DNA of 64,000 bases from Desulfobacteraceae bacterium. GTDB taxonomy: Bacteria; Desulfobacterota; Desulfobacteria; Desulfobacterales; Desulfobacteraceae. Shown here piece by piece: positions 1 through 15,680 of the stretch (position 1 is the stretch's first letter; each line of letters starts with the position of its first letter). Location of the stretch: the NCBI GenBank assembly GCA_024226935.1, contig JAAELK010000499.1:1-64000 (forward strand), read 5' to 3'. Position numbers and translations under genes: made by a program. The notes below the pieces were generated by a model, which saw nothing but the letters and a program-made list of their open reading frames with translations, searched no databases and had not been told where the DNA came from.

Positions 1-163
1 CCCTTTTGGTTTTGTCGTTTATTTTCTCATTCATTTTGTCATAATCTCCCATTAATGTTATAGGTTTATATCACCAATCACAATTAAATTATTGTAACTA
101 CAGGTAAGACTGTTTTGATTATAAAAAGGTTACAAGATTTTTATTTTTTTTAAAGGAGGTAAA

Positions 164-1027
164 ATGAGGATTACTAGAAGTCAGTTTTTAAAAATACTCT
201 TTGGCCTGTTTTTTTCGATTAATTTTGCCTGGAAAACCTCATATGCCGTTGTGAAGGAAATTGTCACTGGAAAAACATCCAAGATAATGTCCTATTTTAA
301 AAATTTAGGATATGAAAAAATAGAACCCTTGGGATTGATAACCAATCATAAATTTAATGGCGGACTACGTTATGACGTCTCCCAGGATGCTAAAATGCTT
401 CAGGGTAAAAGAATGAGGCTCCAGCCTTGTTCACGTATTGAAGATTTAAAAAAGATAAGATCAGAAAATTATCTGCCATATTTTCATATACTTTCATTGA
501 CCAATAGTAATCCGAAATATAAGGGTGAGCTGCTTTGTGATATACTCGATTTTTTAATCAATGATATCAGTTTGGATAAAAATAACCTTTATTTTATATC
601 CACCCAGGAATTTAAACCCTATTATCATATTCTTGAACAATTTAAAATAAATACCGATCAGATTAAAATACGTAGTTTAAAAGAAGCCATGTCAAAAGGA
701 GATGGCTCCGGTTATTTTGCCCCCAGGGGCCATCCCCATAATTTGGGTCAGTACACTGCCTCCATACACTATCTTGAGGCAAATTCGTCGAAATCCAGAA
801 AAGAGCAGATGGCAAAAGGCCATTTGGAGCTTGGTGAGTATGTTATATCAGATAAAAATTTTGAGGAAGTCGGGTGTGGATATGAAAGAATCCAATTTGT
901 GTCGGGTAAAACAATGCCCGATTATAATCAAAGCAGGTTGGAGGTATTGTCCCTTTTAAGGTCCGAGGCCGAAAAGACCGGAGTTCCACTACCAAAAGGT
1001 TATTATATGTTGGAAGAGGAAAAATAA
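164..1027 (+). CDS. Secreted protein resembling a degenerate alanyl-tRNA synthetase catalytic core
   Basis: The protein has 287 residues and a strong ribosome site (aaaggaggt) seven bases before its ATG. Residues 1-28 form a basic start followed by a hydrophobic stretch ending in SYA, which reads as a signal peptide or membrane anchor. There is no twin arginine. The remainder follows the order of an alanyl-tRNA synthetase core: an FKNLGYEKIEP segment (45-55) like the AlaRS opening helix, a motif-2-like QPCSRIEDL (87-95), YFHIL (106-110) where AlaRS has FFEMLG, HPHNLGQYTASIHY (190-203) where AlaRS has its GPCGPCSEI loop, and GCGYERI (237-243) like class II motif 3 (GLERL). The tRNA-binding, editing and C-Ala parts are absent. 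The resemblance is by eye. Charging of tRNA is not implied, and a secreted synthetase fold would be unusual. It stands alone, convergent with the alcohol dehydrogenase gene. Confidence 0.45.
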   Translation: MRITRSQFLKILFGLFFSINFAWKTSYAVVKEIVTGKTSKIMSYFKNLGYEKIEPLGLITNHKFNGGLRYDVSQDAKMLQGKRMRLQPCSRIEDLKKIRSENYLPYFHILSLTNSNPKYKGELLCDILDFLINDISLDKNNLYFISTQEFKPYYHILEQFKINTDQIKIRSLKEAMSKGDGSGYFAPRGHPHNLGQYTASIHYLEANSSKSRKEQMAKGHLELGEYVISDKNFEEVGCGYERIQFVSGKTMPDYNQSRLEVLSLLRSEAEKTGVPLPKGYYMLEEEK

Positions 1028-2456: not shown

Positions 2457-3746
2457 CTAGTATATTTTTTCAATGGTTTCCATGGCCAGGGTATAGACTT
2501 TTTCATTAAAACGTGTTTTGAGGGCAAAGGATAGTATTTCCTTTGAAAACAGGACCTTTTCTTTTGCCAGAACCCCAAGTGATGCCAGGGCCCAGTCCTG
2601 CTTTCGTATTTTAAATTTCTTAAAATCAATTTCAAACACCCGGGCACGGGTTTCAGGAATAGCCACGCTTTTTTCTTTGAGGACAAAAGTGGATGGTTTC
2701 AGGTTTTTAAAAATTTTTTCTCGCCGTTGTACTCCTTCAAGGCTTAAGGCCATTACCAGGGTGGGAGATTCAATCCCAGTATATCCTATTTTTTCAGGAG
2801 ACAAGAGGATTTCGGAAACCGACTGGCCCCGGAGCACCGTGATATTATAGTCATTTTTAATGGATACGTTCATGCCGGCAGACATTCCTGCATGGCAGAC
2901 AATATCTCCGGCTGTGACAATACGCATGCCGGCACTTCCCAGGATCACTATTTCCTGGCGTTGGGGCGTGGTAAGGTTAAATGACTTTTCGATGGTCAGA
3001 GTCTGGGGGAATTGGGTTTTTTCTTTGGCCAGTTCCCTGTATAATTTCCCATATTCAGGCCGCTGGTTTTCCTTGACTACTCCGCCTTCAATGGGTTGAT
3101 CCACAATCATCTGGTCAATGACCTTGGGAGTTAGTTTGTTGTGTTTTGTATAACGGCCGGTACACATCCCCAGGGTCTCCACAACGGCAAATCCTTTATG
3201 GGTGATGGCTTTTGCCAGTTCATCGGCAAGGGCAGGATCATGGCCGGCGCATTTGGATACATAGGTGGCTCCTGCACTTTTGGCAATTTTACAGATATCG
3301 ATGGGAATTTCAGCCTGGTTGAGAAATTCAGATCCCACCACGGCGTCGCTGGGAGTAGTGGAAGAATATTGTCCTCCGGTCATACCGAAATTAAAATTAT
3401 TGAGAATGATCAAAGTGAGATCCAGGTTTTTTCGGCAGGCAGCCAGCACGTGGGCGCCACCGATGCCAAGCCCTCCATCTCCCATGGTGACAATTACGTT
3501 AAGGGTTGGGTCGGCAAGTTTCAGGCCTGCGGCATAGGTCAGGGCTCTGCCATGGACACCGTGGAGGGCATGGACGTTGAAAAAGGTGTCAAAAAGACCT
3601 GAACAGCCGATGTCTGTCACAATAACGGTTTTGTCGGCATCGAGGTTTAAATTTACCAGGGTATTGTCCAGGCCTCTTGTGATGCGTTCATGGGTGCATC
3701 CCGGACAAAAAACCTGGGGGCGATCTGTATTTAAAAAGCTATTCAT
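2457..3746 (-). CDS. korB: 2-oxoacid:ferredoxin oxidoreductase, fused beta (TPP) and gamma subunits
   Basis: The protein has 429 residues. The N-terminal part (to about 230) is the thiamine-pyrophosphate beta subunit: FCPGCTHE near the start, DIGCSGL, the GDGG magnesium/TPP motif and NNFNFGMTGGQ. The C-terminal part (from about 260) matches the gamma subunit, starting ILGSAGMRIVTAGDIVCHAG. Beta and gamma are separate genes in many organisms, so this is a natural fusion. The ATG at 3746 is chosen over a TTG at 3752 because the GGAGG at 3756-3760 is well spaced only for the ATG. The start overlaps the alpha-subunit stop by 8 bases (ATGAATAG), indicating translational coupling. The enzyme decarboxylates a 2-oxoacid to acyl-CoA and reduces ferredoxin. 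No ferredoxin-like delta gene is adjacent, and the substrate is not determined. Confidence 0.88.
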   Translation of the reverse strand: MNSFLNTDRPQVFCPGCTHERITRGLDNTLVNLNLDADKTVIVTDIGCSGLFDTFFNVHALHGVHGRALTYAAGLKLADPTLNVIVTMGDGGLGIGGAHVLAACRKNLDLTLIILNNFNFGMTGGQYSSTTPSDAVVGSEFLNQAEIPIDICKIAKSAGATYVSKCAGHDPALADELAKAITHKGFAVVETLGMCTGRYTKHNKLTPKVIDQMIVDQPIEGGVVKENQRPEYGKLYRELAKEKTQFPQTLTIEKSFNLTTPQRQEIVILGSAGMRIVTAGDIVCHAGMSAGMNVSIKNDYNITVLRGQSVSEILLSPEKIGYTGIESPTLVMALSLEGVQRREKIFKNLKPSTFVLKEKSVAIPETRARVFEIDFKKFKIRKQDWALASLGVLAKEKVLFSKEILSFALKTRFNEKVYTLAMETIEKIY

Positions 3747-4854
3747 TTTCAATGACCTCCATAATCTTGCCGGGTGTAATCATCACCCCGTTCATCTGTC
3801 CGTAAAAATCAATTTTTTTACCACCAAGAATTCGCCTTATTTCGTTAATATACTGTCCCAGATTCATTTCAATTACCACCACCCGTTTGAAATTTGCGGC
3901 TGTTTTCAAGATTACCTGTTCAGGTACCGGCCACAGGGTTTTTAAGGACAGAGTGGAGATCGGCTGTCCTTTTTGGGCCAGTATTTTTGCGGCATCTTCC
4001 ACAGCTCTTGATGTAATCCCGTAGCTGATGATAAGGGTATCGGTTTCCGGGATTAAATTTTTTTCATAGAGGGAGAGTTGTTGTCTTGCTGCATGAAGTT
4101 TGGTTCTCAATCGTTGTTGGTTGGCAGCAATTATTTCCGGATCTATGGTAATATATCCATCGGGTCCATGGGTGGAAGATGTTTGCCGGACCAGGGTTTT
4201 GCCGCCAATGGGAAGAAAGGGCGGTGCCTTGTCAGGATCGGCTTTAAAGGGAATATAATTGTCTCCCTTATAGGGGGTTCGTTCAACCAGGGAGGGCAGG
4301 GTGACTGAGTTCAGGTCAAAGCTTTCTTTGGTCATACCGATCTCCTTGTTGGAGGCGATAAAGACCGGGCATCTGAATTGCTCTGCATAATTAAATGCAT
4401 GGATGGTCAGGATGTAGCAGTCCAGGGCATCCTTGGGAGCCAGGACGATGACAGGTACACCTGCGGTTGCCCCCCATCTCAAAAACTGGATATCGGAATC
4501 CGCTCCCCTTGTGGCGGAACCCGTGGAAGGTCCCAGGCGCTGAACGTCTGCAATGACCAGGGGGATTTCACTGCCAATGGCAAAGGAAACCTGCTCGGAA
4601 TAAAGGCTGATACCGGGTCCGGATGTGGCAGTCAATACTTTTTTACCGGCCATGGCAGCTCCTATGCAATAACCCATGGAGGCGATCTCGTCTTCTCCCT
4701 GGATACAGATCCCCCCCGTGGGCGGCAGCATTTTAAGCATATTACTAAATATGGTGGTGGCCGGGGTTATGGGGTACCCTGCAAAAAAATTACAACCTGC
4801 TGCCATGGCCCCCCTGGCAAGAGCTTCGTTGCCTTCCATAAAAGATAAAGCCAT
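3739..4854 (-). CDS. korA: 2-oxoacid:ferredoxin oxidoreductase, alpha subunit
   Basis: This 371-residue protein has the KorA pyrimidine-domain signature: EGNEALARGA at the start, GYPITPATT, then GEDEIASMG and the conserved TSGPGISLYSE with DVQRLGPSTG. The second domain (from about residue 260) ends with the LGQYINEIRR segment typical of KorA. The ATG at 4854 is chosen because AAGGAG lies 7 bases upstream and the family starts here; a longer frame back to 4962 lacks family-like sequence. It is the first gene of the operon with the beta-gamma fusion and pairs with it to oxidise a 2-oxoacid with coenzyme A and ferredoxin. A GntR-type regulator is divergently transcribed about 210 bp away and is the likely controller, which is inference from position. 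Confidence 0.9.
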   Translation of the reverse strand: MALSFMEGNEALARGAMAAGCNFFAGYPITPATTIFSNMLKMLPPTGGICIQGEDEIASMGYCIGAAMAGKKVLTATSGPGISLYSEQVSFAIGSEIPLVIADVQRLGPSTGSATRGADSDIQFLRWGATAGVPVIVLAPKDALDCYILTIHAFNYAEQFRCPVFIASNKEIGMTKESFDLNSVTLPSLVERTPYKGDNYIPFKADPDKAPPFLPIGGKTLVRQTSSTHGPDGYITIDPEIIAANQQRLRTKLHAARQQLSLYEKNLIPETDTLIISYGITSRAVEDAAKILAQKGQPISTLSLKTLWPVPEQVILKTAANFKRVVVIEMNLGQYINEIRRILGGKKIDFYGQMNGVMITPGKIMEVIENE

Positions 4855-5066
4855 TTTGATTCTCCTTGAATGTTCTTTGTTCCATCCCATGGGATTTAAT
4901 AATCTGATTAACAATCTGATTAAATTTATCATCTTATTATCGTCTGTTCCCTTGGTTGTCAAGCAATTAATGATGAAATTCAGTCAGATATATAATAGGT
5001 TATCCCATCTTAAATTAATAATATTTTAATTGATTTTGTAAAAGTCTTGGTATAACTTACGGGATT

Positions 5067-5756
5067 ATGAGAGCTAAACAAAAAAAAACCAAGGAAGATT
5101 TCACCATGGAAGCCTATAGTGGCATTCGTCGGATGTTTTTCCACAATGAAATCATTCCGGGCCAAAAAATTTCCTATGGAGATCTGGCCCAGCGCTTGAA
5201 AATGAGTACCACTCCGGTGATCCAGGCCTTGAAACGACTGGAGTTCCAGGGGTTGGTTCGCCATGAACCCAACCGGGGATATTATACGGAAAATATAAGC
5301 CTGGAAGAGATTACTCAAATCTATGAGTTCAGGGAGCTTATTGAGGTTTCTTTGCTTGCTAAAACAATTTTCTCCATCACCAAAAAAGGTCGGAATACTT
5401 TAAAAAAAGCCCTGGATAATCATTTAGAGGCGGTCAGAGATATTTATCTCAAGGATCGGCTTTTAAAGGATATGGAATTTCACCTGGTGCTGGCAAAATT
5501 ATCCGGCAGTCAGATCCAGATCAACACCTTAAAATCCTTATTTGATCTTCTTTATTTGAAATATCGGGGCAATATTTTATTTGTCACCCCCATGGAAACA
5601 GTGGACGCCGAACATATCCAATTGTATGAGGATATTGATGTTGCTGACCTTGAGTCGGCCCAGGCGGTTTTGGGCCAGCATATTTCAAATGTTAAACAGC
5701 ATGCCATCTTGAGTATAGAACGGATGAACCGGGAAAAAAATATCAAAACCATTTGA
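5067..5756 (+). CDS. GntR family transcriptional regulator (FadR/FCD type)
   Basis: The protein has 229 residues. An N-terminal winged helix (about 10-80) contains GDLAQRLKMSTTPVIQALKRLE, the GntR helix-turn-helix, followed by the wing HEPNRGYYT. The C-terminal all-helical FCD-type ligand domain (about 90-220) carries FRELIEVSLL and MEFHLVLAKLSG; these proteins bind small organic acids, often with a metal. It is divergent from the oxidoreductase operon, and the roughly 210-bp gap must hold both promoters. The likely role is control of that operon in response to a substrate or product, by analogy with other divergent GntR genes. Confidence 0.88.
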   Translation: MRAKQKKTKEDFTMEAYSGIRRMFFHNEIIPGQKISYGDLAQRLKMSTTPVIQALKRLEFQGLVRHEPNRGYYTENISLEEITQIYEFRELIEVSLLAKTIFSITKKGRNTLKKALDNHLEAVRDIYLKDRLLKDMEFHLVLAKLSGSQIQINTLKSLFDLLYLKYRGNILFVTPMETVDAEHIQLYEDIDVADLESAQAVLGQHISNVKQHAILSIERMNREKNIKTI

Positions 5757-8283: not shown

Positions 8284-9642
8284 TTACTGAATACAAATGG
8301 TTTTAATGTTTACAAATTCCTTGATTCCATAATCGGACATTTCCCGGCCATATCCGGATTTTTTGACTCCTCCAAAGGGCAGTTTGGGATTTGATGCGGT
8401 CAGTGTATTTACAAAAACCATTCCAGCCTCGATTTTGCGGGCAACTCTTTCACCTCTTTGGGAATCTTTTGTCCAAACGGCAGCTCCCAGCCCAAATCTG
8501 GTATCATTGGCCACGGCAACAGCTTCATCTTCATTTTTAACGGTTATGATTGCAGCCACAGGTCCAAAGGTTTCTTCTTCATAGACCGTCATACCCTTTT
8601 TTACATTTGTAATTATGGTGGGGGCATAAAAATTTCCCGGTCGATCCAGTCTTTTTCCTCCGGTCAGAAGTGTGGCTCCCTGGGCAATTGAGTTTTCCAC
8701 CTGGACATGTATCTCTTCAACCAGATCAGCCCTTGCCATGGGAGCCATCTGTGTATTTTCATCGGCGGGATCGCCCACTATTAAGCTTTCCATGGCATCT
8801 TTCATCTTTGATTCAAACTCCCGGGCGATTTTTTCTACTACAATAAATCGTTTGGCAGCGATACAAATCTGGCCGGCATTCAAAGTTCGTCCTAAAACGG
8901 CGGTTGCAACACATCTATCCATGTCGGCATCTTCAAAGACAATAAAGGGGTCTGAACCGCCAAGTTCAAGAACCGATTTTTTCAGTTCTTTTGCAGCAGT
9001 CATTGCAACCTTGATTCCGGCCGGTTCGCTGCCGGTCAGGGTAACCGCCTTGACCAATGGGTTTGTGATGACGTCTTCCACAAGGCCAGATGGAATAATA
9101 AGAGACCTGAAGATATTTTCTGGAAATCCGGCTTTTCTCAGGATCTGTTCTATCTTTACAGCACAACCCATCACATTGGAGGCATGTTTTAAAACCACTG
9201 CATTACCTGCCATCAAGGCAGGAGCCACGAATCGCAAAACCTGCCAGAAGGGAAAATTCCACGGCATTACCGCAAGTACAATCCCGATGGGTTGAAAAGC
9301 TGCAAAACTCTTTGAATAATCGGTTTCAATTATTTCATCCCTGAGTATTTTTTCAGCATTGTCCCCATAGTACCTGCATGCCAGGGCGCATTTTTCAACT
9401 TCTGCCCTGGCTTCTGAGATCCGTTTTCCCATTTCAGCCGTCATGATGGCTGCACAATCATCTCTTTGTGCCAGAAGAATGTCCGATGCCCTATGCATGA
9501 ATATTGCGCGTTCGGTAAAAGAGGTCTCTTTCCAGGACAGCCAGTCTTTGTTGACGGACTCGATGATTTTTTCGACATCCTTTGGTGAATGCTCGGTATA
9601 TTCTTTTATGACTTCATTGGTAGTCGGGTTTATGCTTTTCAT
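8284..9642 (-). CDS. NAD(P)-dependent aldehyde dehydrogenase, succinate-semialdehyde dehydrogenase-like
   Basis: This 452-residue protein has the aldehyde dehydrogenase order: MPWNFPFWQ and VLKHASNVMG in the cofactor domain, catalytic Glu in LELGGSDPF (near residue 230), catalytic Cys in AGQICIAAKR (near 264), and ETFGPVAAI near 365. Length and the LPFGGVKKSGYGRE ending match the short GabD1/YneI branch, which oxidises succinate semialdehyde and similar aldehydes. The ATG at 9642 is chosen because AAGGAG precedes it by 6 bases; the frame continues to 9696 without support. It stands alone between the hairpin at 8225 and the helicase gene. The exact aldehyde is not predictable. Confidence 0.88.
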   Translation of the reverse strand: MKSINPTTNEVIKEYTEHSPKDVEKIIESVNKDWLSWKETSFTERAIFMHRASDILLAQRDDCAAIMTAEMGKRISEARAEVEKCALACRYYGDNAEKILRDEIIETDYSKSFAAFQPIGIVLAVMPWNFPFWQVLRFVAPALMAGNAVVLKHASNVMGCAVKIEQILRKAGFPENIFRSLIIPSGLVEDVITNPLVKAVTLTGSEPAGIKVAMTAAKELKKSVLELGGSDPFIVFEDADMDRCVATAVLGRTLNAGQICIAAKRFIVVEKIAREFESKMKDAMESLIVGDPADENTQMAPMARADLVEEIHVQVENSIAQGATLLTGGKRLDRPGNFYAPTIITNVKKGMTVYEEETFGPVAAIITVKNEDEAVAVANDTRFGLGAAVWTKDSQRGERVARKIEAGMVFVNTLTASNPKLPFGGVKKSGYGREMSDYGIKEFVNIKTICIQ

Positions 9643-9711
9643 GTTAACTCCTTGGGAAAAAATAGATAATATCTGATAATATTGAACTATTTTCAAGTTT
9701 AAACAATATTT

Positions 9712-11154
9712 TTATTTTTGTTTTAAATAAAGCCGGATAAATTCCGGGATATCACTTTCCCTGTCAAATCTCAGGTTTACCATGGCCCGGGTCATGGACA
9801 CATAGATCAGGTTGAATTCGTCGGGGTCAACCCCGGTGGGGGAGATGATCTTTTCTTCTTTAATCAGAGGTTGAAAGTCTTGTGCAATGAGAACATTGGC
9901 CCATTCCAGACCCTTTGATTTATGGGCTGTGGTCAGAACTATTGCCGCCTGATCTTTCTCCACTGCCTGTTCCATGATCCGGTTCACATGGTTGGGAATC
10001 CCCGTTGTATATTTTTCAACCATTTTGCATACAGAGGATAGTTCAAAATCTTCCACGGCCTTGGCATAGAATCTTAAGTCCCTGAAACTGGCAAAACTTT
10101 TGATATAGGCATCCTTGATCTGGAAATGATCTTTTTTGTATAGATAATATACGTCCTTGAGAATGTCCAGTCGATAGCTGCCCACTCCACCTACAAATCC
10201 GATCTTGTGTCTTTTGTATAGTCTTACCGCCCTGTCAAAGACAGTGGCATTGGTTCGTGCAATAATGGTATGATGTCCTGGATCCCAGGCAGGTTTTTCA
10301 GGCACGGGGGTGCCCATGATTTCCCGGCTTTCTTTTTTGAATTTTTTCAGGATCATATTGGCCACCCGGGCCACATTGTTATCAAACCTGAAACTTTGGG
10401 TCAGATATTTGGTCCTGGAGGCTGAAAAACTTTTCAGGGTGTCTTTGGCTCCTCTGAAACTATAGATCTGCTGGTGGCCGTCCCCCACCAGAATGATGGC
10501 CGCAGATTTTTGGGCCTGGGCAAAGACAATGGCAGCGGTTACAGGGTTGATGTCCTGGGCCTCGTCCAGGAGAATACAATCATAGTCCAGGTGGGGATTT
10601 GATAATTGGTAGAGCTTTAAGTATCCGTCATGGATCATGCCTATATTTTCGTTGGAGCCATCACACATGAGTCTTCCCAGGCGATTGGCATGGTCAACCA
10701 GAGGCGGCATGGGGACCTTATTTTTTTTGTAGAATCCTTTTGCCACGACGGGGATGTGGTGGTGGGAGACTTTGGGATCTGCCGATACCAGGTAATTGTA
10801 GAGAGTGTCCATGGTATACCTTGCATCTTCATATTCTTCAAGGCCCAGGGCTGCCATGACCTGGTTGGCCCTGAATCCTTTCACCAGACGGTCTTTGTAT
10901 TTAAATCCTTTGGTTCTGAAGGCAAGGGAATGGGTGGTTCTGGCTGTTACATTGCCGGGAAATTTTTGGGTGGCTTCCAATTGTACGCTCTTGTTAAAGG
11001 CAATATATAAAAAACGTATCCCCGGGCGTTTTTTTGTATATTCCACCAGGGTGGTGGTTTTACCGGTGCCGGCAAAGGCCATGATTTTGAGGGTATCCCC
11101 CGGCACAAGATCGCAGTTTATAATTTGATTTTGTTCTTTGGTAGTTTGAATCAT
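9712..11154 (-). CDS. UvrD/Rep superfamily 1 DNA helicase, FBH1-like
   Basis: The protein has 480 residues, shorter than UvrD (about 720), because the 1B/2B insertions are reduced. Visible helicase motifs in order: AFAGTGKTTTL (Walker A, near 28), ARTTHSLAF (Ia), LLDEAQDINP (Walker B, near 197), VGDGHQQIYSFRGA (III), LTQSFRFD (IV), TTAHKSKGLEW (V, near 415) and IYVSMTRA (VI). The compact layout resembles the helicase core of FBH1-type enzymes, which strip recombinase from DNA. An antirecombinase or repair role is inference. All catalytic motifs are intact. It has no partner gene beside it. Confidence 0.85.
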   Translation of the reverse strand: MIQTTKEQNQIINCDLVPGDTLKIMAFAGTGKTTTLVEYTKKRPGIRFLYIAFNKSVQLEATQKFPGNVTARTTHSLAFRTKGFKYKDRLVKGFRANQVMAALGLEEYEDARYTMDTLYNYLVSADPKVSHHHIPVVAKGFYKKNKVPMPPLVDHANRLGRLMCDGSNENIGMIHDGYLKLYQLSNPHLDYDCILLDEAQDINPVTAAIVFAQAQKSAAIILVGDGHQQIYSFRGAKDTLKSFSASRTKYLTQSFRFDNNVARVANMILKKFKKESREIMGTPVPEKPAWDPGHHTIIARTNATVFDRAVRLYKRHKIGFVGGVGSYRLDILKDVYYLYKKDHFQIKDAYIKSFASFRDLRFYAKAVEDFELSSVCKMVEKYTTGIPNHVNRIMEQAVEKDQAAIVLTTAHKSKGLEWANVLIAQDFQPLIKEEKIISPTGVDPDEFNLIYVSMTRAMVNLRFDRESDIPEFIRLYLKQK

Positions 11155-11183
11155 GTGTAGATGGAGACCATAAAAAGTTCGGT

Positions 11184-11957
11184 TTACTTGAGAAAGAATC
11201 CTCTTTTTTCAAGAAATGATTTTAGTTGGGGCCGGCTGATCTTGTTCATGAAATCTGCCATCTGCTGGCTCCAGGTCTGATCCCTTAAGTTGGAGTCCCT
11301 GTTTAGATAATAGTCGCGGCAGGTTTTATCATAGGTATCCAGGCTTTTTTTTGCAGTCATTTGAGAGGGATCGGTCAGTTCTTTTTTGGAATCAGGGCCG
11401 AAAAAAGAGTCTTCTTTGAGTATTAAATCAAGGGGTAATCTGGGTTTGATCCCAGGGGTCCTTGCAGGGTAGCCCAGGCACATACCAAAGACCGGATAAG
11501 CATTGTTGGGTATATCTAATAGTTTGCAAACCTTTTCCGGGTCATTTCGGATCCCGCCGATGAAAACCCCGCCAAGCCCCACGGATTCTGCGGCTACCAT
11601 AAGATTTTGAGCCATGATGGCAGTATCCACCGTGGCCGTGACAAATTGTTCTGCCCATCCTGTCTGAGCTATAAGTTTGTGCTGCTGGCAGGTAGATTCA
11701 AGCCGGGTAAGCTCGGCACAAAAAATAAGGAAGGTGGGAGCCTGTTCAACCCAGGGTTGGGGGCCGGAAAGAGTTGCAATCTGTTTTTTATTTTCTTTGT
11801 CCTTAACCCGGATAATGGTATAGGCTTGGACATGGTGGGAGGTAGCAGCACATTGGGCCGTTTCTATAAGGGTACGAAACAGGGATTCTTCAATGGGTTT
11901 ATCCGTAAATTTGCGGATGGATCTGTGGGCGGACAACAGGTTTATGGTCGTGTTCAC
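11184..11957 (-). CDS. Nitroreductase family oxidoreductase (NfsA-like)
   Basis: The protein has 257 residues from a GTG start at 11957 that follows AAGGAAT. The family signature LSAHRSIRKFTDKPI begins six residues in. QCAATSHHVQAYTIIRV, VAAESVGLGGVFIGGIRN and FGMCLGYPA are the FMN-contacting segments of NfsA-type nitroreductases, and the C-terminal arm extends past them. It reduces nitroaromatics, quinones or flavins with NAD(P)H. The gene follows the hemerythrin stop by 7 bases, so the two are one operon and are probably translated together. The start at 12023 would overlap hemerythrin and was not used. Confidence 0.85.
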   Translation of the reverse strand: MNTTINLLSAHRSIRKFTDKPIEESLFRTLIETAQCAATSHHVQAYTIIRVKDKENKKQIATLSGPQPWVEQAPTFLIFCAELTRLESTCQQHKLIAQTGWAEQFVTATVDTAIMAQNLMVAAESVGLGGVFIGGIRNDPEKVCKLLDIPNNAYPVFGMCLGYPARTPGIKPRLPLDLILKEDSFFGPDSKKELTDPSQMTAKKSLDTYDKTCRDYYLNRDSNLRDQTWSQQMADFMNKISRPQLKSFLEKRGFFLK

Positions 11958-11964
11958 GTGATAC

Positions 11965-12372
11965 TTATTCCTTGTTTGTTTTTTCTGCATCGAGAATATA
12001 TTGGCCCAATTTTTTATCATCACCGAAAATATGGTCCAATATCCATTTGTTAATTTTTTTTATAAGCTTATCAACGGCTTCTTCCGAATATTCTTTGTGG
12101 TTTGCCCTGAATTTTTTGAGGGTTTTAATATATTCCTTGTGTTCTTTTTTGTGTGATTCTTTTTCCGGGTAATAATAAATATCCATGTATTCTTCTTCCA
12201 GTTTGAAATGGTGGTTTGCATACATGGACAAAAATGCCACGGTAAACCGGAAAGCATCTTTATCTTTTTTGTCTGCCCGGGCCTTTCTCAGTTTTGCAAA
12301 AAGTTCCATCATCTCTTTGTGCTGAAAATCCTGCCATATCACACCAGTAAAGTATTTTTGCTCCAGCAGCAT
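11965..12372 (-). CDS. Bacteriohemerythrin
   Basis: This 135-residue protein is a single four-helix hemerythrin domain. Iron ligands are visible in order: a His in WQDFQHKEM near residue 18, HHFKLEEEYM near 54-63, HKKEHKEY near 73-80, and HIFGDDK near 115-121 (the HxxxxD motif). It binds O2 at a diiron site; in anaerobes it serves O2 sensing, delivery or detoxification. The start has AAGGAG at 7 bases. It is the first gene of a pair with the nitroreductase, which suggests a joint role in oxygen or redox stress. Confidence 0.92.
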   Translation of the reverse strand: MLLEQKYFTGVIWQDFQHKEMMELFAKLRKARADKKDKDAFRFTVAFLSMYANHHFKLEEEYMDIYYYPEKESHKKEHKEYIKTLKKFRANHKEYSEEAVDKLIKKINKWILDHIFGDDKKLGQYILDAEKTNKE

Positions 12373-13229: not shown

Positions 13230-15680
13230 TCAGGAAAGATAGGGTTCCAGGTAGAGTTTGAGAAAGCTGTTGGATGCAAAGGCATTTTCCAGAAAATTAA
13301 AAACACCGCCGGAAGATGTACCGACAAGTTTCATGTCGGGGTTGCCATCAATTGAATAGGAATTGTCCTTCAGGTCAAAATCCCCCTCTTCTATTGCCTG
13401 GATATATTCATTAATATACTCGCGGTTTTCATCATTTCTAAATTGGTAGCCAGACTCATCACGGCTGAAAATCAGTTCGGGATCAAAACCTGTTGCCCTG
13501 GCAGCAGATACAAGTTCACTGATATCATTTTTGCAGCAAGCCCCGAGGGTATAGGTGTTGTCTTTCTTGAACAGAGACATTAAATCAAATCCTTTTTCTC
13601 GTGCCTGGGCCATGAAGCTGTTTTGCTCGGCGGCAATAAAATTTTTGGTGCCTTTGATAAGGTTGCTCAATTGACCTTTAGCGCTTTGGGCTATGGTAAG
13701 AAATAAACTGCGGGAGGGACCTGTTAATTGGTTGGTAAGATCCATTAATTTATCTAATACCCCTTGTTGATCGGCATCAACCGAGGCTTTTAAAAATTTT
13801 GTTTTTTCCTGTTCCGTCAGGGAATCGGTAAATAAAGTAAATTCATCCAGATTCTCATGGTTGCGGCCTGCAACTTTCAGAAAATTTTGCAGATTTTCTC
13901 CCTTCAACTTGTCTGTAACCGCCAGGAAATTTTCCTGTTCTTCATCCTCTAATTTCTCCCCCAGGTCCAAAAAATTGTGAAGTTCTTTTTGTGCACCTGC
14001 GGCTGTTTTCAAAAAGGAGGATCGGTCATCCACCGAATCAGACAGTTTTAAGAGAAGTTCTATATCCTCTTGTCCGGATGCAGATCCTGCTGCCCTTAAA
14101 AAATCATGGAATTCACCGGCATCAAGCTCTTTGTTCAGATAAATGTAGGTGGAAGTTAAGGTCTGTTGTTCCGATCCAAAAAGGTCTGATTTTTCCTGGG
14201 CTAAAAATTGTGCTCTTTGTTCATGGGAGTCCATATTTGTTATTTTGTTTAGCATTGCGGGCAGGTCTTTTTTCTTTTCATTGGCCAGGACTAAAAGAAG
14301 ATCTTGGCGCTCCTGTCCCCTGGTATTTTCTACCAGGTCCATGAATTTGTCGGATTGATCGCCCGCTTTTGAGGCTCCGAAAAGAAAGTGACTTTTTTCA
14401 ATTCCGGACAGGGAGTTGCCTTGGTCAATGAATCGTCCCAGACTCGAAGATTTCATCCCCTCTGCCGCTGTGATAAGGTTTTTCAGATCAGCTGTGTGCA
14501 AATCCTTGGCAAGTTCTAAAAATGAAGATTTCCCATCCCCGGCCTTTTTGATTACTGAAATTAATGCCCCAATATCATTGATTCGGCTGGCGGCATTTAA
14601 AAAATTGCCAAGAGCGGTGGAGCTTTTTCCCATTTTTGAAACCTGTCGAATGAATGCTTTGGTATCCGATCCACCATTGGCAGCAGCTTCCAGGAACAAT
14701 TGCCTTTTATCACCCTTAAGTGTTCGTGCCAGGCTATGAAATTTGTCCCTTTGGGAACCGGCATTCACCGAGGCGCTGAGATAATTTTCAAAATTTTCCT
14801 GGGAAAGTGTTGAAGCCATGGACCGGATATCTTTTTGCATCTGTCTTTGCGTCAAGCGGTTGGAGAGTGAAATGAGTTTTCCCTGGGCTTTGCCAGCTTT
14901 TACGGCTGAAAATAGAAAATCTGAAAGTCTATTATTTTCCAATCCCTCAACATGGGATATCAAAAGTGTTAGATTAGGGCTGTCTGCGGCCGCAGTAAGA
15001 AAGTTGTCCCGGTCAATACCGCCTAGTTGTTTGGTTTGCCGGACAAGACTTGCAATATCTTCTGGATTATCAATAGCTGCCTTGATGAAATCGGCCAATT
15101 CGTCATCACTTAGGTTTTTGGCAACCTTGAGAAAATCAAGGTGTAAGGGTGTATTTCCAATTAAATCTGCAATTTTAACCAGGCCGGAAACAATTTTTTG
15201 ATCTTTTTTGGCGGCAATGGATAAAAAAAGATTTCTTTCTTCAACTTCCATTTCGGGGAGTTGCTCGAGCATTTTTCCGGCACTATCTCCGGCTGTTGCC
15301 AGGGCCGAGAATAAATCGCCATGATTCAGGGAACCATCTTTTTCCATGCCACTTAAAAATCTGGTAAGATCATCTATTTTGTGTGTTCCCAGGTTCATGG
15401 TCGAATCAAACAGGTCAAGGGCTTCATTTTCGGTGATTACCACCCTTTGTACAGGCTTGGTAACAATAATAGTTTTAGATTCTTCCACTTTTGTGCCTGA
15501 TATAAAAGAATTATTTTGGTCAAGGCCTTCCTGGCTGATATTTACCTTTATCCCACTTTGATTTCCAGTATCCATTGATACGATAGTTGCCCCAGGTGCT
15601 TGCTGAGTCTTGACTTGGGAAAGATCAGGCTTTGGAAAACCGAGGTTTAAAACCGGATTATTTGAAATGGTATTGTTCAT
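13230..15680 (-). CDS. 816-residue helical-repeat protein of unknown function
   Basis: I know no family for this protein. After a polar N-terminus of about 100 residues (no signal peptide; GATIVSMDTGNQSGIKVNIS), residues from about 110 to 690 are a series of degenerate units of 26-32 residues, each opening FLxxAxxxx and followed by a second helix with Lxx(L/I) and a loop rich in Gly, Asp and Glu. Examples of openings: FLTAAADSPN, YLSASVNAGS, FLEAAANGGS, FLNAASRIND, FLRAAGSASG, FLKTAAGAQK, FLKVAGRNHE, FLKASVDADQ. At least 14 copies are visible, implying an alpha-solenoid. The final 125 residues are different and carry ACCKND and a Phe-rich tail. The start has GGAG upstream. A scaffold or surface role is a guess. 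Confidence 0.75.
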   Translation of the reverse strand: MNNTISNNPVLNLGFPKPDLSQVKTQQAPGATIVSMDTGNQSGIKVNISQEGLDQNNSFISGTKVEESKTIIVTKPVQRVVITENEALDLFDSTMNLGTHKIDDLTRFLSGMEKDGSLNHGDLFSALATAGDSAGKMLEQLPEMEVEERNLFLSIAAKKDQKIVSGLVKIADLIGNTPLHLDFLKVAKNLSDDELADFIKAAIDNPEDIASLVRQTKQLGGIDRDNFLTAAADSPNLTLLISHVEGLENNRLSDFLFSAVKAGKAQGKLISLSNRLTQRQMQKDIRSMASTLSQENFENYLSASVNAGSQRDKFHSLARTLKGDKRQLFLEAAANGGSDTKAFIRQVSKMGKSSTALGNFLNAASRINDIGALISVIKKAGDGKSSFLELAKDLHTADLKNLITAAEGMKSSSLGRFIDQGNSLSGIEKSHFLFGASKAGDQSDKFMDLVENTRGQERQDLLLVLANEKKKDLPAMLNKITNMDSHEQRAQFLAQEKSDLFGSEQQTLTSTYIYLNKELDAGEFHDFLRAAGSASGQEDIELLLKLSDSVDDRSSFLKTAAGAQKELHNFLDLGEKLEDEEQENFLAVTDKLKGENLQNFLKVAGRNHENLDEFTLFTDSLTEQEKTKFLKASVDADQQGVLDKLMDLTNQLTGPSRSLFLTIAQSAKGQLSNLIKGTKNFIAAEQNSFMAQAREKGFDLMSLFKKDNTYTLGACCKNDISELVSAARATGFDPELIFSRDESGYQFRNDENREYINEYIQAIEEGDFDLKDNSYSIDGNPDMKLVGTSSGGVFNFLENAFASNSFLKLYLEPYLS

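Follow-up and report, generated by a model that had tools for sequence, protein, structure and literature searches.

A sparsely distributed protein family with a putative export signal and a predicted alanyl-tRNA synthetase-like core, encoded at the start of a Desulfobacteraceae contig

The window analyzed in this work is a stretch of 64,000 nucleotides from a Desulfobacteraceae bacterium (assembly GCA_024226935.1, contig JAAELK010000499.1, positions 1 to 64,000 of the forward strand). An intact open reading frame of 287 codons with a good ribosome-binding site upstream was found at the very start of this contig (C499), in a genome of 6.09 Mb that is distributed in 590 contigs (Table 1). On its 3' side an iron-type alcohol dehydrogenase gene, named by eye, is located on the opposite strand, and the scans for promoters and terminators gave signals at the level of shuffled sequences. 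Bases 4-129 of the window are identical to bases 1-126 of contig C36 on the opposite strand, with the match ending 3 bases before the start of the window, and C36 is the probable, rather than proven, upstream neighbor. The divergent genes on C36 code, according to the open reading frames and Pfam, for a carboxymuconolactone decarboxylase family protein, an ECF sigma factor and an Fe-S protein, in this order.

Repeats were seen by eye in other proteins encoded in this DNA. An 816-aa protein of the window (13230-15680, minus strand) consists of many degenerate repeats of about 25-30 residues. On contig C36 (L061), a 919-aa secreted-looking protein (9544-12303, minus strand) has C-terminal near-identical tandem repeats (DWSIKGVGDVDGDGTDDIVWQHDSGRVHYWKI), and in an 860-aa chemotaxis-receptor-like protein (3045-5627, minus strand) an N-terminal unit (VDMETGMRGYLLAG) is present three times.

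Table 1. Features of the locus and of the encoded protein. Positions are those of the window and residues those of the window protein.
Feature	Position	Strand	Basis
5' end of divergent carboxymuconolactone decarboxylase family gene	1..52	-	ORFs, Pfam; rest probably on contig C36 (L061:78-359)
Shine-Dalgarno-like AAAGGAGGT	152..160	+	Sequence
Gene of AlaRS-core-like protein with putative signal peptide	164..1027	+	ORF, 287 aa, 18 relatives, model and fold search
Putative signal peptide, residues 1-28	164..247	+	Sequence, aligned with the RR signals of the relatives; cleavage site by eye
FNGGLRYD, residues 64-71	353..376	+	Invariant in 18/18; N65, G67 and L68 aligned to N, G and M of AlaRS NAGM
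Motif 2 equivalent, residues 87-107 (Q87, R91, D94, F107)	422..484	+	Alignment and hhalign map
GSG..F..G.P, residues 181-191	704..736	+	Aligned to AlaRS NFW..G region; AlaRS Trp replaced
E222 to E225, predicted active-site strand	827..838	+	E222 = AlaRS Glu; E225 in place of AlaRS Asn (literature N212)
Motif 3 equivalent GxGxER, residues 237-242 with flanks	869..892	+	Alignment and hhalign map

The first-pass annotation had recognized in this protein the order of the alanyl-tRNA synthetase (AlaRS) motifs, and from the single sequence this likeness was marginal. The window protein alone gave no match up to an E value of 10 in Pfam or among the PDB sequences, and in NCBIfam only one unrelated line (E = 0.094). 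With a HMMER profile of 30 AlaRS it scored -4.7 bits and missed the top 15 in a set of 2,003 sequences made up almost entirely of shuffles. A BLASTP comparison with the AlaRS of its own genome gave E = 0.047, as one comparison, with query residues 34-156 collinear with frame residues 12-149. Mean pairwise alignments against 12 AlaRS cores, run in eight settings with 200 shuffles as background, reached Z values of 3.5-7.7, and in one of these settings one shuffle outscored the window protein. This protein also ranked first among 40 ORF translations compared with the AlaRS cores (Z 6.81, with 4.95 for the second-ranked translation and an average of 0.26 for the other 39). When single E. coli proteins were used, AlaRS (Z 1.2) ranked below PheRS beta (1.9), PheRS alpha (1.6) and SerRS (1.5), and the single-sequence AlphaFold model had a pLDDT of 38.7. 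As set out below, the motif order became solid with the family profile and was settled by the predicted fold. A second, weak match to the Pfam AlaRS family PF01411 (positions 473-534, 26.8 bits, below the cut-off) was observed elsewhere in the same genome (L003, G000:C583:16026-16199), within a 430-aa frame that is distinct from the window protein.

Scans of genome_contigs and viral_contigs with exact peptides found nothing. Degenerate patterns were then placed at motifs guessed to be conserved, built from alignments with deliberately artificial rows, and scanned over genome_contigs; 109 stretches were matched, of which 18 encode relatives according to tblastn (E values 7e-52 to 3e-5, relative to these candidates only). 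The relatives share 27-35% identity with the window protein; seven belong to Roseibium/Labrenzia, four to other alphaproteobacteria (Nitratireductor, Hoeflea, a Rhizobiaceae and an alphaproteobacterial MAG) and five to actinobacteria, and the remaining two are on doubtfully labelled MAG contigs. Both of the latter encode actinobacterial-type members, and their genome labels look wrong: L075 (CAMDMA010000014.1) lies in a MAG titled Kuenenia stuttgartiensis and L084 (CAMDAT010000252.1), whose neighbors are common to L077, L080 and L081, in one titled Bifidobacterium breve.

An alignment of 18 rows has been constructed with the window protein and the 17 complete relatives, L084 being left out as it is truncated by the end of its contig. 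Invariant in all rows are FNGGLRYD, Q87, D94, L104, F107, T147, R170, G181-S-G, P191 and E222, together with G237, G239, E241 and R242 of class II motif 3 and five other positions. None of the 18 members matched PF01411. The Pfam model TAT_signal matched 6 of them (best E 9e-5), with nothing else convincing in this database, and NCBIfam contributed Tat-signal models and two AlaRS models that were hit by one member each (E 0.098 and 0.18). Among the relatives, dN/dS was 0.11-0.33 in eight of nine pairs, indicative of purifying selection, and dS was saturated in the ninth.

The distribution of the family was sparse. Single-sequence searches of 58 genomes of relatives, 389 of the class, 395 of the phylum and 86 of the family gave only the own genome at E <= 0.001, and the 85 other genomes of the family, 5 of them from the same genus, showed no relative of the window gene. 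The family profile also found only the own copy among the 389 class genomes, the other 388 being without the gene. Nineteen weak loci (L004-L022) from the phylum and family searches, run with a limit of E 0.1 (best 0.0085), were judged chance matches; 12 of them were realigned and 6 aligned at E <= 1, each alignment being short, incomplete or interrupted by stop codons. Nothing significant was found in phages and plasmids by a single-sequence search with the window protein, and no relatives appeared in plasmids with one Roseibium member as query, nor in the viral scans carried out with degenerate alignments (three) and with the real family alignment (one).

In the phylogenetic tree, good support was obtained for two groups, one with the four rows from other alphaproteobacteria and one with the six actinobacterial-type rows, and Roseibium/Labrenzia splits in two. 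The window protein is placed weakly (75/81) on a long branch of 1.7, and therefore no origin is claimed for it.

The hydrophobic, signal-like N-terminus described by the first-pass annotation is real in the window protein, with an n region MRITRSQFLK (Tat-like, with RS in the place of RR), an h region ILFGLFFSINFAW and a c region KTSYA followed, after the putative cleavage site, by VV. A twin-arginine signal is present at the same place in all the 18 relatives, including the cut L084, with start codons assigned by eye and with variants such as SRRTF, SRRQF, DRRQL, NRRHV, ARRDI, KRRTI and the like. In seven of these relatives (L074-L077, L080, L081 and L084) a lipobox-like cysteine ends the hydrophobic stretch, and these members look like lipoproteins. 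The export signal thus appears to be a family-wide property that is weakened in the window copy, in which the motif reads TRSQFLK, with Ser for the second Arg, and is not a twin-arginine signal. Its 13-residue core contains 9 bulky hydrophobic residues versus 3-6 in the 17 relatives measured, and its Kyte-Doolittle maximum falls within the range of the relatives. In E. coli, a raised hydrophobicity of the signal can at least partly offset a mutated arginine pair (PMC5539426, in the part of the article available), and a similar compensation in the window copy is only suggestive.

The missing second arginine is what could be expected if the N-terminal segment were a membrane anchor or a relic, with the domain working in the cytoplasm. 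We consider this very unlikely, since the arginine pair is kept in the 18 relatives, seven of them with a lipobox-like cysteine, the own genome contains TatC, and the effect described in E. coli offers a way around the loss. From these signals we infer that the family is exported across the membrane by Tat. The lost arginine pair, together with the long branch, an odd composition and the lack of relatives in the other genomes of the family and genus, would also fit a decaying gene in this bacterium. However, decay of the window copy is most improbable, because its frame is open over the full length behind a good ribosome-binding site, its catalytic-type residues are kept and the window sequence itself yields a confident model.

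This model was obtained with AlphaFold2 from the mature window protein aligned with the 17 relatives (pLDDT 88.9, pTM 0.87). A Foldseek search of the PDB with it gave 71 matches at E <= 0.001, and ranks 1-19 were AlaRS, from the best E value of 3.1e-11 to 1e-7, rank 10 being an integrative model titled ISPT-SYA. HisRS, GlyRS alpha, ThrRS and others came after them, from E 1.9e-5. In ranks 1-19 the query-normalised TM was 0.57-0.65 and the rmsd 7.5-9.8, moderate and high values respectively, and the Foldseek superposition is therefore loose. In VIA-align, ranks 1-3, all AlaRS, showed a Z of 20.1 and 3.0-3.2 A over 240-245 residues, and ranks 1-12, also all AlaRS, had Z values of at least 18.0. 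Archaeal AlaRS were found at Z 13.3-14.2. Bacterial and human AlaRS were at 18-20, whereas the other synthetases compared (GlyRS alpha, PylRS, HisRS, PheRS and ThrRS) remained at Z 13.7 or less, with GlyRS alpha (12.9-13.7) as the best of these families and PylRS at 13.2 and less.

Profile comparison with hhalign gave probabilities of 71.0, 75.0 and 76.6% for the family against the AlaRS profile (the last with E. coli master), with P values of 2-4e-5 over 204-214 columns, versus 1.9% against the GlyRS-alpha profile. The other controls were single sequences, and their contrast with the AlaRS profile is thus uneven: PheRS alpha reached 13.4%, over 26 motif 3 columns only, HisRS 1.6%, ThrRS 0.3%, ProRS 0.3%, SerRS 0.1% and PheRS beta 0.0%, four unrelated E. 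coli proteins gave 0.2% or less, and the single-sequence E. coli AlaRS only 2.2%. A search of the PDB sequences with the family profile, up to E 10, gave an unrelated synthase (0.057) followed by four distinct AlaRS (0.38-1.2), so that sequence-profile search alone leaves the AlaRS similarity below significance. The structure prediction and fold search against AlaRS that the first-pass annotation had proposed thus ended in a confident model with AlaRS as its best PDB matches, and its claim of a class II AlaRS core has been borne out by the model, the Foldseek ranks, the VIA-align scores and the hhalign probabilities. By computation, AlaRS is the closest known structure to the predicted fold of the family, and the predicted fold and AlaRS kinship can be regarded as strongly supported. 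A family without Pfam or NCBIfam matches, Tat-signal models aside, can now be described by a predicted fold, a set of motifs and an initial residue map, and it illustrates that distant synthetase relatives of this kind escape standard profile searches.

The residue map was derived with hhalign and could be displaced in loops; AlaRS numbers are given one above those of the literature (Met1 counted) unless stated. In the NAGM loop, AlaRS N41 and G43 are kept in 18/18 rows each, as is Q66, and R69, Y70 and D71 after the NGGL loop are new invariants of the family. In motif 2, AlaRS R70 corresponds to R91, kept in 17/18 rows (L076 has Cys), and D77 and F91 correspond to D94 and F107, both kept in 18/18. 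F170 is kept in 17/18, the strand E210, equivalent to E222, in 18/18, and motif 3 G238, G240, E242 and R243 in 18/18, with R243 falling on R242. The ATP-contact arginines to which the first-pass annotation had pointed are therefore conserved in both motifs. On the other side of the pocket, AlaRS D236 (literature D235) is replaced by Gly (7), Ala (5), Ser (3) and others, with Glu in the window protein alone, N213 (literature N212) by Glu (17) and Asp (1), and W171 (literature W170) by Ala (13), Arg (4) and Ser (1). The motif 2 Arg and Asp, the motif 3 Arg and the strand Glu are presumably the nucleotide-side residues of AlaRS, and we take N212 and W170 (literature numbering) to be alanine-holding residues. 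The available parts of PMC7373986 and PMC12143591 assign the binding of the alpha-amino group to literature D235, and PMC7373986 notes that AlaRS and tetrameric GlyRS have Asp at the motif 2 position of the usual Glu; D94 would fit the AlaRS-type Asp provided that this loop is correctly aligned. As far as the aligned sequences indicate, the family has retained the nucleotide half of the AlaRS active site and remodelled the alanine half. With D235, N212 and W170 replaced in the family, it is unlikely that alanine is held in the AlaRS way. Activation of an amino acid for transfer to a cell-wall or small-molecule acceptor, as suggested by the first-pass annotation, is a hypothetical use. The lack of tRNA-binding and editing parts, also stated by the first-pass annotation, is borne out, the window protein stopping 45 residues after motif 3.

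The genomic context of the relatives has been examined by eye, with 20 neighbor proteins scanned against Pfam. In these neighborhoods no partner gene is shared across clades and none hints at a reaction, neighbors differing by clade, and no cell-wall or biosynthetic neighbor conserved across clades was seen. By neighbor clusters, UvrB is nearby in 7/7 Roseibium/Labrenzia loci and a choline-sulfatase-type gene in 6/7 (names taken from L069), ABC-3 transporter genes and a Fur-type regulator in 4/4 loci of other alphaproteobacteria (named from L078), and carotenoid-type genes (by eye), NUDIX and PhyH in L077, L080, L081 and L084 (named from L077). In L078 and L083, the family gene and the ABC-3 type metal transporter operon with its Fur-type regulator are divergent, their ORF starts being separated by about 140-190 bases. 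L077 and L081 have a sigma-factor-like gene directly next to the family gene, and in the own genome the second of the divergent genes codes for an ECF sigma factor; until there is evidence to the contrary, this association is regarded as coincidence.

ATP is scarce outside the cytoplasm, and the retained nucleotide contacts may be structural relics. This scarcity, the rebuilt alanine pocket and the export signals with lipobox-like cysteines, which suit a binding protein, would be accommodated by a non-catalytic AlaRS-like core acting as a periplasmic or surface receptor for a nucleoside, a nucleotide or another small molecule. Such a receptor is a possibility to be considered, although on the unlikely side, since the arginines of both motifs, the Asp of motif 2 and the strand Glu are conserved in 17-18 of 18 rows, which goes beyond the need of a mere scaffold, and no transporter or sensor adjoins the gene across clades, although an ABC-3 operon is near it in four alphaproteobacterial loci. 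Export signals, a kept nucleotide half-site and a sparse distribution would also be in keeping with a decoy or immunity role, in which the protein captures toxic mimics of aminoacyl-adenylates (sulfamoyl-adenosine antibiotics) on their way to the cytoplasm. Nevertheless, this function is highly improbable: the alanine-holding residues needed to trap alanyl-adenylate mimics are lost, and no producer-type gene cluster was seen beside the family genes (20 proteins scanned with Pfam, the rest viewed as ORF starts).

Given the retention of the arginines of motifs 2 and 3, of the motif 2 Asp and of the Glu on the strand, the family is best read as a binder of adenine nucleotide or adenylate. Our leading explanation, which is put forward tentatively, is an exported AlaRS-derived domain whose ligand, outside the cytoplasm, would be an adenine nucleotide or resemble an acyl-adenylate, and which would act there enzymatically on an acyl group other than alanine. 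The single mature domain would descend from the AlaRS catalytic core by loss of the tRNA-binding and editing parts and gain of a Tat signal. The kept half-site would hold ATP or the AMP part of an adenylate, and the alanine pocket would have been rebuilt for a different acyl partner, ligand and catalysis being here deduced from residue conservation. Tat exports folded proteins, and therefore the protein could leave the cell interior with its ligand bound; it would probably cross the membrane already folded, and its carrying a ligand is conjecture. The fuller version, in which an AlaRS-descended adenylate-handling enzyme is exported folded by Tat, perhaps with nucleotide or acyl-adenylate, and transfers or hydrolyses an acyl group outside, is speculative and, taken as a whole, improbable. 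AlaRS can adenylate lactate (PMC12143591, in the part available), which makes an AlaRS-derived pocket for a non-amino acid chemically plausible.

The family seems to be an undescribed and sparsely distributed one in which the AlaRS core has been reused in a new cellular place. To our knowledge, every bacterial case of a reused aminoacyl-tRNA synthetase core works in the cytoplasm. A Tat-type signal on an AlaRS core with its nucleotide half-site would thus be a new place for an ancient translation fold, and it raises the question of whether adenylate chemistry takes place outside the cytoplasm or the pocket has turned into a receptor. No published description of an exported AlaRS was found in the open-licence PMC literature, among the matches listed; PMC3305326, in its available part, uses AlaRS as a tree marker.

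Compared with the AlaRS core (PDB 3HXU, 1RIQ, 4XEM and 9JC7), the mature domain of the family has a similar predicted fold (VIA-align Z 18.1-20.1) and the same class II motif order, with motif 2 Arg and Asp, motif 3 GxGxER, strand Glu and N-x-G loop. Unlike AlaRS, it carries a Tat-type signal on a mature domain of about 260 aa, lacks tRNA-binding, editing and C-Ala domains and a PF01411 match, and has literature D235, N212 and W170 replaced. The GlyRS alpha subunit shares the class II fold and is the best non-AlaRS family in VIA-align, but it is distant in hhalign (1.9% versus 75.0% for AlaRS, both as family profiles). A core with a non-translation job is found in the repurposed class II synthetase relatives HisZ, AsnA, EpmA/PoxA, BirA and the SerRS-like carrier-protein ligases. 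As far as we know, all of these are cytoplasmic and none is AlaRS-derived. HisZ is listed among such relatives in PMC7373986, in the text available. AcmF from ascamycin biosynthesis resembles the family in being a truncated AlaRS relative with changed alanine-activation residues, and, by our own reading of the residue equivalence, it has Gln and Glu where the family has mostly Glu and Gly/Ala/Ser, respectively (PMC12945691). In contrast with the family, AcmF keeps a tRNA recognition domain, which by length is absent from the family, and uses Ala-tRNA, and the available part of PMC12945691 does not mention an export signal. AcmF lies in an antibiotic cluster, and no such cluster was seen beside the family genes among the 20 neighbor proteins scanned with Pfam and the ORF starts viewed. 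AcmF is, according to that same part of PMC12945691, a truncated AlaRS relative that, with altered activation residues, has turned into an acyl transferase with aminoacyl-tRNA as donor.
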